Source: an uncultured Oscillospiraceae bacterium (GTDB taxonomy: Bacteria; Bacillota; Clostridia; Oscillospirales; Oscillospiraceae). Taken from it: a stretch of DNA of 16,040 nucleotides. The notes under the pieces are model-generated. The model was not told the origin of the DNA. It ran no database searches and saw only the letters and a program-made list of their open reading frames with translations. The translations under genes were made by a program, and so were the position numbers. The stretch spans positions 1 through 16,040 of the forward strand of contig CAKTHQ010000045.1 in the NCBI GenBank assembly GCA_934565415.1, read 5' to 3'. Positions 12,035 to 14,874 of the stretch are shown here, piece by piece. The first letter of the stretch is position 1. Every line of letters begins with the position of its first letter.

Positions 12035-12063
12035 TTGACAAACAGACCGTTTTCCTGTATTAT
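12035..12063 (+). promoter_or_regulatory. Strong sigma-A promoter of the T-box transcript
   Basis: A consensus -35 TTGACA (12035-12040), a 17-base spacer and TATTAT (12058-12063) make this one of the best promoters in the window. The predicted start is near 12070, just upstream of the T-box leader. Control is therefore probably by attenuation rather than initiation. Confidence 0.8.
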
Positions 12064-12091
12064 CACCACAACAACTTCACACCGCTTCCAA

Positions 12092-12367
12092 ATGTGTTGA
12101 ATCAGAAGAGTAAGATCCCGTTTCCTTGTCCAGAGAGCTGCCGGTTGGTGCGAGGCAGTTGAGGGCCCGATCCGAAAATCCCTGAGGAGCAGCCTGCTGA
12201 AAGATTTCGAGTAAGTTAGGACGTAGGGCATACGTTACCGTGCCGCACGTTTAACCGACAAGGGCGACGTGGCTAAGGGGCCGAGTATCTCGGCAATTTG
12301 AGTGGTACCGCGGAACTGTATTTTCACAGCTTCGTCTCAAGCAAAACTTGAGACGAAGCTGTTTTTT
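12092..12367 (+). promoter_or_regulatory. T-box riboswitch leader, probably sensing uncharged tRNA-Ile
   Basis: All main T-box parts are visible. In Stem I, TCAG (12102-12105) pairs with CTGA (12182-12185) and GATC (12114-12117) with GATC (12169-12172). These frame a specifier loop with AGTA (12109-12112) opposite CGAAA plus ATC (12173-12180). An AG-rich bulge and a CTGCC/GGCAG distal hairpin with GGTGCGA in the loop complete the stem. Stem III is GCCGAG/CTCGGC (12280-12294). The T-box core AGTGGTACCGCGG spans 12301-12313. TTGAG just before and in the core pairs with CTCAA of the terminator arm, giving mutually exclusive antiterminator and terminator. By alignment with the known glyQS loop (CGAAA then specifier) the codon is AUC, Ile; the UGGU bulge requires discriminator A, which suits tRNA-Ile. 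The riboswitch call is near certain; the amino acid is moderately supported. Confidence 0.95.
12326..12367 (+). terminator. Intrinsic terminator of the T-box leader
   Basis: A perfect 16-bp stem (12326-12341 with 12347-12362, loop CAAAA) is followed by six T residues. It ends 24 bases before the start codon of the dehydrogenase gene. Its 5' arm contains the CTCAA that pairs with the T-box in the antiterminated state. Confidence 0.93.
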
Positions 12368-12391
12368 ATTTGCGAAAAGGAGAAAAAGAAC

Positions 12392-13498
12392 ATGAATACT
12401 TACACCAACTGTCTGCCCGCCTGGAGCGTTGGCCCGGATTGCTACAAGGAAGTTTGGAACGTTGTCCACCGGTATGGCAAAACCGCTGCGGTGGTTGGCG
12501 GCAAGACGGCTTTGGAAAAGGGCTACGGCAAACTGAAGGCCGCCGTAGAAGGTACCGGCCTGACCCTGACTGCCCCGATCTGGTACGGCGGCAACTCCAC
12601 CTACGAAAACGGCGACACGGTGGCCGATCTGGAAGAAGTAAAGAATGCGGATATGCTCTTTGCCATGGGCGGCGGCCGGGCGGTGGATACCTGCAAGTAT
12701 GTGGCAGAAAAGCTGGATAAGCCTCTGTTTACTTTCCCCACCATCGCTTCCAACTGCGCTCCCGTCACCGCTATCGGCGTGTTCTACAACCCGGACGACA
12801 GCTTTAAAAACTACTTCTATCCCAGCCGCTGCCCCCTGCACACCTTCCTTGACACCCAGGTTGTGGCGGAGGCCCCGGAAAAGCTGCTGTGGGCCGGCAT
12901 CGGCGACGCCCTGAGCAAGGAATGTGAGGTAGAGCTGTGCACCCGGGGCCGGGACCTGCCCCACACCCCCCTGATGGGCCGGACCATGGCCGCCTGCTGC
13001 ACCGATCCCTTGGTCAAGTATGGCAAAGAAGCCCTGGAAGAGTGCCGGAACAACAAGGCGGGGGACGCCCTGCAGCAGGTGGCCCTGTGCATCGTGGTCT
13101 CCACGGGCCTGGTTTCCAACTTCACCACCACGGCTGACGACTACTACTACAATAGCTCCCTGGCCCACTGCGTATACTACGGCGCCACTTTGGTGCCCGC
13201 CTCCGGACACAACCACCTCCACGGTGAAATCGTCTCCTTCGGCGTACTGACGCTTCTGACCTACGACAAGAACTTCGCACGGCGGGACGAGGTACTGGCC
13301 TTTAACGCCTCCGTAGGCCTGCCCGTGACCCTGGCAGAAATCGAATTGACGGAAGCGGATCTGCAAACCGTTGCTGATAAGGCCTCCACCGTTCTGGAAT
13401 GGACCTGCTCTTTGCAGACCTTCACCAAGGAAGCCTTTATGCAGGCCATGCGGGACGCCGACGCTGCCGGTAAAAAATATCTGGAAAGCCATAAATGA
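12392..13498 (+). CDS. Iron-containing alcohol dehydrogenase, glycerol-dehydrogenase-like
   Basis: This predicted 368-residue cytosolic NAD(P)-dependent dehydrogenase belongs to the GldA-like branch of the group III (iron/zinc) ADH family. The ATG at 12392 has AAGGAG upstream; an in-frame GTG at 12302 lies inside the T-box and is rejected. The Rossmann-like half carries GGGRAVDTCKYVAEK (93-107) and TIASNCAPVTAIGVFY (117-132). The metal site matches GldA: Asp172 in IGDALSKECE, His259 in LAHCVYY and His277 in HLHGE, with the same 18-residue spacing between the histidines as in GldA. Substrate is unknown: glycerol is possible, but T-box control points to a compound tied to amino-acid supply. It is the first gene of the T-box unit, 132 bases before the transporter gene. 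Confidence 0.88.
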   Translation: MNTYTNCLPAWSVGPDCYKEVWNVVHRYGKTAAVVGGKTALEKGYGKLKAAVEGTGLTLTAPIWYGGNSTYENGDTVADLEEVKNADMLFAMGGGRAVDTCKYVAEKLDKPLFTFPTIASNCAPVTAIGVFYNPDDSFKNYFYPSRCPLHTFLDTQVVAEAPEKLLWAGIGDALSKECEVELCTRGRDLPHTPLMGRTMAACCTDPLVKYGKEALEECRNNKAGDALQQVALCIVVSTGLVSNFTTTADDYYYNSSLAHCVYYGATLVPASGHNHLHGEIVSFGVLTLLTYDKNFARRDEVLAFNASVGLPVTLAEIELTEADLQTVADKASTVLEWTCSLQTFTKEAFMQAMRDADAAGKKYLESHK

Positions 13499-13502
13499 TC
13501 TC

Positions 13503-13596
13503 GGCCTGACCAGCTTCCCCATCATAAGTCTTCCCCGGCCTGACCAGCCTGCGCATAGAAGAGAAGTAAGAAATCCCCGGGCCTGACCAGCCCGGG
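13503..13596 (+). repeat. Three copies of a 12-base motif between the ADH and transporter genes
   Basis: GGCCTGACCAGC occurs exactly at 13503-13514, 13537-13548 and 13580-13591 (start spacing 34 and 43 bases). The third copy lies inside a 7-bp hairpin, CCCGGGC (13576-13582) with GCCCGGG (13590-13596), whose loop is CTGACCA. The other copies have weaker flanking complementarity. No U-run follows, so it is not a terminator. The gap has no gene; it ends with the AAAGGAG ribosome binding site of the transporter gene. Confidence 0.75.
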
Positions 13597-13630
13597 ACCC
13601 GAAATGAAAATGAAAAAGGAGAAAAACGCC

Positions 13631-14815
13631 ATGTCTACCAAGAAGAAATCCTCCTGGGCCACTGCCCTGAGCATCGGCTTTACCGCCTTCGCAGCCCATG
13701 CCGGCGGCGGCTTCGCCACCGGAAACCAGGCCAATACCAACTTTGTCTCCCTGGGCTGGGTGGGCATTTTCAGTGCCCTGCTTGCCATGGTTCTGCTGGC
13801 CCTGTCCACCCGGGAAGCCCAGCTCCTGTGGAATACCCGGGGCTGCAAGAGCTACAAGGACCTGTTCTCTGCCCTGTATCACCCCTACGATAAGCTGTGG
13901 GTCACCTTCGATGTATTCTACGACATCATGATCCTCATGGTGGTTGCCTCCTGCATCGCCGGTGCCGCCAGTGCTCTGCAGCAGTACCTGGGCGTCAACT
14001 ACTACCTGGGCGCTCTGGTAGTAGGCGTTGTGATCCTGCTCCTGTCCATCTTCGGCGCGGACCTGGTCCGGATGGGCTCTTCCTATATGGGTCTTGCCAT
14101 CCTGGTGCTGTCCCTCGTTATCTACTTCTATGGGCTTATGAAGGGCGTAAACCTCTTCGATACCCTGAAAGCCAGCTTCGAAGCCGACGGCTTCTCCAAT
14201 GTGCCTAAGGCCCTCTTCAACGGTGTCAACTACGCTGCCTTCCAGTGGGTTACCATTCCCGGCGTTCTGGCCTGCGGCACTGTGCTGAAAACCAAGAAGG
14301 ACTGCACCCGGGGCATGAGCTGTATGCTTCTGTTTAATGTATTGGGCTTAGGGCTCTCCGTACTGATGCTCACCGCCTGGAGCGGCTACTTCACCACCGT
14401 CACCGGCGGCACCACCCTGCCCACCCTTACCGTCCTTATGAGCCTAGATATGAACTGGCTGGTGGTCCTCTACTGCCTGGTGCTGTTCCTGTGCATGATC
14501 TCCTCCGGCGTTGTGGTGGTCTTCGGCTTCATCAACCGGTTTGAAAACGCCAGCTATCTGCAGTTCGTCAAGAACACCCATGTCCGCCGGGGTGCCATTG
14601 CCACTGCCATCATGTGCGTATCCATGTTTATCTCCTTTGCGGGCCTGACGAACATTGTCAAGTACGGCTACGGCTACTGCGGCTACTGGGCCATCGTATT
14701 CGTCATCGTCCCCCTGCTGACCATCGGTGCCTATAAAAACCGCCGGTTCCTGAAGGGCCTCCCCGACGAGGACAGCACCTTCGATACCGCCACCAAGACG
14801 GAGGCGGCTGTGTAA
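13631..14815 (+). CDS. YkvI-like membrane transporter of the APC/NSS-type fold
   Basis: This predicted 394-residue inner-membrane protein has roughly ten to eleven hydrophobic helices. The ATG at 13631 is chosen because AAAGGAG lies nine bases upstream; ATGs at 13604 and 13610 have no ribosome binding site. The first helix contains AHAGGGFATGNQ (22-33), an unwound glycine-rich substrate/Na+ site typical of the YkvI (COG3949) group and related to the amino-acid-polyamine and neurotransmitter symporter folds. Later landmarks are ASCIAGAASALQQYLG, SIFGADLVRMGS and NGVNYAAFQWVTIPGVLACG. The C-terminal tail is short and acidic. The substrate is not established; its place behind an Ile-type T-box suggests an amino acid or a related organic acid. 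It probably shares the T-box transcript with the ADH gene and ends at the bidirectional terminator. Confidence 0.82.
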   Translation: MSTKKKSSWATALSIGFTAFAAHAGGGFATGNQANTNFVSLGWVGIFSALLAMVLLALSTREAQLLWNTRGCKSYKDLFSALYHPYDKLWVTFDVFYDIMILMVVASCIAGAASALQQYLGVNYYLGALVVGVVILLLSIFGADLVRMGSSYMGLAILVLSLVIYFYGLMKGVNLFDTLKASFEADGFSNVPKALFNGVNYAAFQWVTIPGVLACGTVLKTKKDCTRGMSCMLLFNVLGLGLSVLMLTAWSGYFTTVTGGTTLPTLTVLMSLDMNWLVVLYCLVLFLCMISSGVVVVFGFINRFENASYLQFVKNTHVRRGAIATAIMCVSMFISFAGLTNIVKYGYGYCGYWAIVFVIVPLLTIGAYKNRRFLKGLPDEDSTFDTATKTEAAV

Positions 14816-14874
14816 AAAATACGCCCCGCAAACCAGGTTTTGCCTTGGCTTGCGGGGCGTACTTTGTTTATTTC
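14813..14874. terminator. Bidirectional intrinsic terminator between transporter and hsp20
   Basis: TACGCCCCGCAA (14820-14831) pairs perfectly with TTGCGGGGCGTA (14850-14861), with a smaller CCAGG/CCTTGG stem inside. On the plus strand CTTTGTTTATTT follows. On the minus strand a TTTTTT run follows directly. The convergent transporter and hsp20 genes therefore share one terminator, which is stronger for hsp20. Confidence 0.88.

Follow-up and report, generated by a model that had tools for sequence, protein, structure and literature searches.

T-box riboswitches, dehydrogenases of the GldA fold and the E. coli hydroxycarboxylate dehydrogenase HcxA are already known, and each resembles one part of an operon found in 16,040 nucleotides from an uncultured Oscillospiraceae bacterium (contig CAKTHQ010000045.1), the whole stretch being called the window below. 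The operon consists of a T-box leader, a gene for a protein of the iron alcohol dehydrogenase family (Fe-ADH; the protein is called the ADH here) and a gene for a YkvI-like transporter. The T-boxes (Rfam RF00230) of the branched-chain genes ileS, brnQ and leuA have the same leader RNA and isoleucine (Ile) specifier, but they control a synthetase, a biosynthetic enzyme or a known carrier, whereas that of the window controls a dehydrogenase and an unassigned transporter. HcxA (YbdH) has the GldA fold, Cys and Lys in place of GldA Asp121 and Thr175, amino-acid-responsive control and a transaminase neighbour, as in the system described here; it is, however, 26% identical to the window ADH, answers to methionine instead of Ile and does so through the protein repressor MetJ instead of RNA, and no YkvI or BASS transporter is among the annotated neighbours of E. 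coli hcxA. The gene adjoins the methionine transaminase gene ybdL, and one study places ybdH under MetJ together with methionine salvage genes, including a methionine aminotransferase gene (PMC3228920). By analogy, hcxA-ybdL would follow the same logic as the window operon with another regulator. GldA shares fold and metal ligands with the window ADH, but its curated score is not reached and Asp121 and Thr175 are replaced in the family. The Bacillus coagulans polyol dehydrogenase double mutant 6csj is reported to have acquired D-lactate dehydrogenase activity, two changes having made a GldA-fold enzyme a 2-hydroxy acid dehydrogenase, and a mutated glycerol dehydrogenase acts on pyruvate (PMC4222570). 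However, 6csj is a laboratory mutant working on pyruvate/lactate, whereas the window family is natural and has Cys at 121.

That the window carries a T-box with Ile specificity is nearly certain, and a role of the operon in branched-chain amino acid supply is very likely; its best specific reading, held as probable, is a salvage route for 2-hydroxy acids. Uncharged tRNA-Ile would pair with the AUC specifier and the UGGU bulge, so that the antiterminator would form and transcription would run on into both genes. What the transporter would then bring in is a branched-chain 2-hydroxy acid; the likeliest candidate is 2-hydroxy-3-methylvalerate, the hydroxy counterpart of Ile and a fermentation by-product of neighbouring organisms. 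Its oxidation by the metal-dependent dehydrogenase would give 3-methyl-2-oxovalerate, from which IlvE, the branched-chain aminotransferase of the cell, would form isoleucine. Gut bacteria produce branched-chain hydroxy acids (PMC11239411). We infer the substrate, the direction of reaction, the transport and the tRNA response from a computed basis comprising the T-box, its specifier, the repeated co-occurrence of ADH, transporter and T-box, the clade-wise distribution of specifiers, the active-site residues, and the ilvC/ilvE pattern in most of the nearest genomes.

The Rfam covariance model RF00230 matches the window leader over its full length (model positions 1-219) with a score of 123.5 bits (cut-off 93, E 1.7e-27), bearing out the original prediction of a complete T-box with promoter and 16-bp terminator. 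The terminator hairpin was computed at -27.3 kcal/mol (48-base stretch folded), and the antiterminator stretch, folded alone, at -9.6 kcal/mol; alternative antiterminator and terminator structures are thus present by prediction. AAAAGGAG stands directly upstream of the ADH open reading frame. Table 1 collects the features of the window and the T-boxes of related loci.

Table 1. Features of the T-box operon in the window, and T-boxes at related ADH loci (L numbers are loci)
Feature	Position or locus	Strand	Basis or remark
Sigma-70-type promoter	12035..12063	+	TTGACA 12035-12040, spacer 17 bp, TATTAT 12058-12063; from sequence
T-box riboswitch RF00230, transcriptional type	12088..12342	+	Rfam score
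Specifier codon AUC (Ile)	12178..12180	+	6 nt upstream of Stem I closing GAGC; position rule
T-box bulge UGGU	12303..12306	+	Predicted partner of tRNA acceptor end
Intrinsic terminator	12326..12367	+	16-bp hairpin, arms 12326-12341 / 12347-12362, then T run
GldA-fold Fe-ADH family protein, 368 aa; putative 2-hydroxy acid dehydrogenase	12392..13498	+	Profile matches, predicted fold, alignment
YkvI-like transporter, APC/LeuT-type fold; putative importer of hydroxy acid or related acid	13604..14815	+	Predicted fold, homologues
Terminator-like hairpin ending the two-gene operon	about 14816..14865	+	-31.0 kcal/mol (66-base stretch folded)
Paired T-boxes, L003	1861-2105 and 4681-4929		
Paired T-boxes, L004	1868-2112 and 4690-4938		
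T-boxes, Ile AUC (n=10)	window, L001, L002, L003 second, L004 second, L006, L082, L133, L134, L138		
T-box, Val GUC (n=1)	L005		
T-boxes, Leu (n=5)	L003 first, L004 first, L099, L100, L143		
T-boxes, Trp UGG (n=11)	L085, L088-L092, L144, L145, L171, L172, L178		
T-boxes below gathering score	L002, L003 second, L004 second, L005, L006, L088, L091		

Each specifier was read as the triplet six bases upstream of the Stem I closing GAGC or GAGG, a rule calibrated on 13 T-boxes of relatives whose downstream genes are named by NCBIfam (TyrS, BrnQ, PheS, IleS, ValS, two LeuA, AlaS, CysS, ThrS, AsnB and two TrpX-like). At the first anchor it was correct in 11 of these 13; AlaS was read wrongly and CysS correctly only at the second anchor. 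It is by this calibrated rule that the window specifier is read as AUC, so that the branched-chain specificity proposed earlier, for which no specifier had been named, can now be given as Ile. The ileS and brnQ T-boxes of the closest relative, G001, also read AUC. For the upstream T-boxes of L003 and L004 the 6-nt rule gives UGG, a tryptophan (Trp) codon, but leucine (Leu; CUG, at a spacing of 7 nt) is preferred, since L099, a sister locus with a closely related ADH and YkvI, has CUC in the aligned T-box. The codon of L143 is less certain, being CUA by the rule but with GAAC as anchor. Discriminator pairing (UGGU/UGGC) was not used as proof of specificity, since it does not separate Ile, Leu and valine (Val), and both forms occur among the Trp T-boxes here.

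The window ADH matches the Fe-ADH model PF00465 at 62 bits, the glycerol dehydrogenase model NF006941 at 197.7 bits (curated cut-off 336) and the HcxA model NF007880 at 100.3 bits (curated cut-off 429). The 19 best-ranked solved chains, all of them glycerol or polyol dehydrogenases, match its predicted structure (mean predicted local distance difference test score 92.1) with template modelling scores of 0.81-0.89. In the alignment, position 121 of E. coli GldA is Cys and position 175 is Lys in all 57 rows of the ADH family and in HcxA, whereas all four GldA rows have Asp and Thr; the metal ligands Asp171, His254 and His271 (GldA numbering) are retained in 57 of 57 family rows. The Lys, four residues past the metal-binding Asp, would be a natural partner for a carboxylate, judging from its place in the sequence. 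Asp121 belongs to the substrate site, and one of the two 6csj mutations reportedly falls at this position; the D-lactate-active mutant suggests that loss of Asp121 may accompany 2-hydroxy acid activity.

For the transporter, which matches no Pfam or NCBIfam model, ATG 13631, preceded by AAGGAG, is the likelier start; homologues P0124-P0133 have 392-395 aa, and the top homologue, P0123, has 460 aa. The name YkvI comes from a single source's label of P0237, a 53% homologue. Among the 50 fold matches listed are amino acid carriers as well as LAX3 and AUX1, two auxin carriers whose structures were determined with indole-3-acetate. Within the 105-base gap between the two genes, GGCCTGACCAGC occurs three times (13503, 13537, 13580).

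Recurrence of the arrangement was evaluated in several sets of genomes. A first scan of contigs gave ten loci, of which L001-L006 are Clostridia loci at 54-90% identity, and in all six a T-box precedes the ADH orthologue. The closest relative (L001) keeps the T-box (AUC), the ADH (90% identical) and the transporter (90%) in the window's order, so the association is present in close relatives, a survey of which had been proposed. No T-box was found in L007-L010, L007 and L008 having been scanned at gathering scores only. When 200 genomes were drawn at family level, 17 had matches at E 1e-30, and of the 18 loci shown, 14 had GldA as their best match and became a control set; wider draws, from the order, the class and the phylum, at E 1e-80, placed the family in 18/394, 17/391 and 15/398 genomes, each count including G001. 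The tree holds 57 family rows, eight further loci (L146, L147, L148, L167, L174, L175, L179, L180) being left out; a search for the T-box core motif, made in place of an Rfam search, found none beside the ADH in these eight. At the head of the ADH gene or operon a T-box stands in 27 of the 57 family rows, every one an Rfam match, 20 above the gathering score and seven below it (61.4-91.6 bits, E <=6.7e-11), and in none of the 14 GldA control loci (Fisher p 0.00055, a rough guide only, because the rows are related). The core motif is imperfect, having shown five of six Rfam-found T-boxes in one set of loci and missed that of L133; for this reason, and because L007 and L008 were scanned at gathering scores only, 27 of 57 is a lower bound. 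S-adenosylmethionine (SAM) riboswitches near L132, L168 and L053 were not counted, each being on the downstream side of its ADH or GldA gene.

The genes adjoining these ADHs narrow the probable chemistry. Behind Ile or Val T-boxes the orders are ADH-YkvI, ADH-BASS, YkvI-IlvE-ADH or ADH alone; behind Leu T-boxes, YkvI-ADH; and behind Trp T-boxes, ADH-YkvI, YkvI-ADH or ADH-TrpX ABC. A BASS transporter gene follows the Ile- or Val-T-box ADH in L002, L003, L004, L006 and L082, and in L005 a partial BASS gene stands at this place. The window has a YkvI-like protein instead of these partners, which are related to PanS and ASBT(NM) (198-227 bits against a PanS cut-off of 400). Pantoate is itself a 2-hydroxy acid. 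The best solved relative of the L006 protein is ASBT of Neisseria, a structure of which binds pantoate (PMC10645422). The L138 operon, behind an Ile T-box, encodes a YkvI-like protein, IlvE (493.9 bits, cut-off 307) and the ADH; two loci with no T-box seen have an aminotransferase gene beside the ADH, one scoring above its cut-off (L176, 639.8 against 549 bits) and one below (L105, 344.7 against 498 bits). These aminotransferase neighbours and the BASS partner, together with the active-site residues and the likeness to HcxA, favour a 2-hydroxy/2-oxo acid step. The original prediction of salvage toward a branched-chain amino acid or its carbon skeleton is therefore kept, and its alcohol or aldehyde step is not, as a possible route of that kind would need steps not seen in the loci. 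A salvage pathway that starts from a fusel-type alcohol, an aldehyde or a short acid, with the ADH oxidising 2-methylbutanol or a similar compound and further enzymes (e.g., 2-oxoacid ferredoxin oxidoreductase) rebuilding the 2-oxo acid, is in keeping with the many alcohol dehydrogenases that give the Fe-ADH family its name, and the T-box ties the operon to Ile supply. It is nonetheless quite unlikely: none of the several extra enzymes was seen among the scanned T-box operon neighbours (2-oxoacid oxidoreductases were not searched genome-wide), the partners found are a branched-chain aminotransferase and BASS and TrpX-like transporters, and Cys and Lys at 121 and 175 are common to the family and HcxA.

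The same neighbours bear on the direction of the reaction. Dehydrogenases of this type are reversible, and TrpX-type and BrnQ-type amino acid transporters stand under T-box control in related genomes, so that the window transporter might import an amino acid while the ADH reduced surplus 2-oxo acids to hydroxy acids for redox balance or export. Removal of the missing amino acid's precursor would be wasteful under starvation, however, and in L138 IlvE lies between transporter and ADH; this explanation is judged unlikely, and oxidation of an imported hydroxy acid is retained. Beside the TrpX systems just mentioned, a TrpX-like ABC operon follows the ADH with no visible T-box in L101, L102, L135-L137 and L139, its binding protein having been scanned in L101 and L135 and the others recognised by gene lengths only.

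On the 62-row ADH tree the 16 branched-chain rows and the 11 Trp rows can be separated by one change, whereas 500 shuffles of the specifiers averaged 8.69 changes and never needed fewer than 5; as the shuffles ignore kinship, this is read as specificity kept within clades and not as 27 independent cases. All Trp rows fall within one 20-row clade (support 97/95), four-state coding (Ile, Val, Leu, Trp) requires four changes, and presence versus absence of the T-box requires nine. L003 and L004 each have two T-boxes in a single locus, Leu then Ile, each heading its own ADH and transporter, and so offer a natural side-by-side comparison of specificity. Because the T-boxes read as Ile, Val, Leu and Trp, the enzyme family appears to serve several amino acids, and the derivative common to these is the 2-oxo/2-hydroxy acid. 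A wider reading, in which we place slightly more belief than doubt, is that of a widespread salvage system of Clostridia, in which one GldA-fold 2-hydroxy acid dehydrogenase family would work with interchangeable transporters (YkvI-like, BASS, TrpX ABC) and the T-box codon would name the substrate: 2-hydroxy-3-methylvalerate for Ile, 2-hydroxyisovalerate for Val, 2-hydroxyisocaproate for Leu and indolelactate for Trp. On this reading, the hydroxy acids that lactic acid bacteria and Stickland fermenters excrete would sustain auxotrophs in the gut.

Biosynthetic capacity was judged on the genomes of relatives in place of the window's own. Among G001-G006, the hosts of the closest ADHs, ilvC was found in none of the six and ilvE lies above its cut-off in five; ilvD has no match in G001, G002 and G005. 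In G003 and G004 (loci L076 and L181) a T-box reading CUC (Leu) stands directly before ilvE, at 92.5 and 87.1 bits, just under the gathering score, and neither genome has an ilvC match. The ilvC pattern also bears on a salvage of some other precursor, in which the ADH would make or use an Ile-pathway intermediate resembling 2-oxobutyrate or an acetohydroxy acid, or else an epimer not directly analogous to the amino acid. HcxA acts on 2-oxobutyrate and 2-oxoglutarate, and LarC, which serves the nickel cofactor of lactate racemase, is encoded near the ADH in L165, a hint at epimer conversion. With no ilvC found, however, G001-G006 would be barred from the usual route from upstream intermediates to Ile, and the Leu and Trp specifiers of the sister clades would be left unexplained; such a salvage is accordingly thought quite improbable, and a direct hydroxy analogue of the amino acid is preferred. 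With regard to the LarC neighbourhood itself, a Ni_insertion-family gene occurs in both L165 and L166. In L165 (1346-2185, 2230-3228) the ADH is followed by a CobT-like (DBI_PRT) gene and a Ni_insertion/LarC gene, with L166 similar and L167 so by gene lengths only, and a link between nickel-pincer hydroxy acid racemases and the ADH is possible from these neighbours. The CobT-like gene of L165 scores below its NCBIfam cut-off. A CstA gene lies on the opposite strand in L165, and cstA is likewise near hcxA in E. coli.

Several results weigh against hydroxy acid salvage as proposed here. No curated cut-off of a named enzyme is reached by the window ADH; HcxA is a long branch outside the family and lies on the GldA side of the midpoint in the larger tree; and GldA position 245, reportedly the second site of the D-lactate mutant, was discarded as a diagnostic because the Ser seen in one alignment was not reproduced in the larger one. 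The YkvI-like protein could instead carry the finished amino acid, a peptide or some other compound, as its modelled fold suits amino acids as well as acids. The single change on the tree is what simple operon inheritance would likewise give, and more than one would be needed if both upstream rows of L003 and L004 were Trp. Gene absences are soft evidence, as genome completeness is not stated, and G006, which has an Ile-T-box ADH in 1.2 Mb of sequence, has no ilvE match. Moreover, ilvC is present in G419, G726, G630 and G678, all hosts of Ile-T-box ADHs, and ilvD is above its cut-off in G004, G419, G630 and G678, with weaker ilvD-like matches in G003 and G006, from which it follows that salvage would not be limited to auxotrophs; trpB, above its cut-off in 8 of 20 hosts, several with Trp T-boxes, implies the same for the Trp version. 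Finally, no T-box was seen in 30 of the 57 family rows, of which 20 were scanned with Rfam and ten (L135-L137, L139-L142, L170, L173 and L176) by core motif only. This last count would also suit an ADH with no role in amino acid supply, carried along with a transporter that needs T-box control. In L133 and L134, however, an Ile T-box precedes the ADH with no recognised transporter adjoining, and elsewhere the ADH is retained while the transporters change between YkvI-like, BASS and TrpX ABC, which makes such a passenger role very improbable.

No description of a hydroxy-acid salvage route under T-box control was found, nor any account of T-boxes on these dehydrogenases, a weak negative given that subscription journals fall mostly outside the literature covered; in the main text of one T-box survey, as far as it was available, the word 'dehydrogenase' is absent (PMC2494555). 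If hydroxy acid salvage is correct, the T-box codon would serve as a label that assigns substrates both to a transporter family and to a family of enzymes whose present annotation is glycerol or alcohol dehydrogenase. Two kinds of gut compound, indolelactate and the branched-chain hydroxy acids, would then be tied to the amino acid nutrition of gut Clostridia. Predictions of auxotrophy would also be corrected, as a genome that has ilvE and no ilvC, like those of the nearest relatives, could still make isoleucine from hydroxy acids.

Two other features of the window lie at its ends. On the minus strand, positions 3-1754 hold, by eye, the start of a gene for an AdhE-like bifunctional aldehyde/alcohol dehydrogenase, the second Fe-ADH-type protein of the window, and a tRNA gene at 15965-16037 matches Rfam RF00005 at 61.2 bits, with the anticodon CAU as read by eye.

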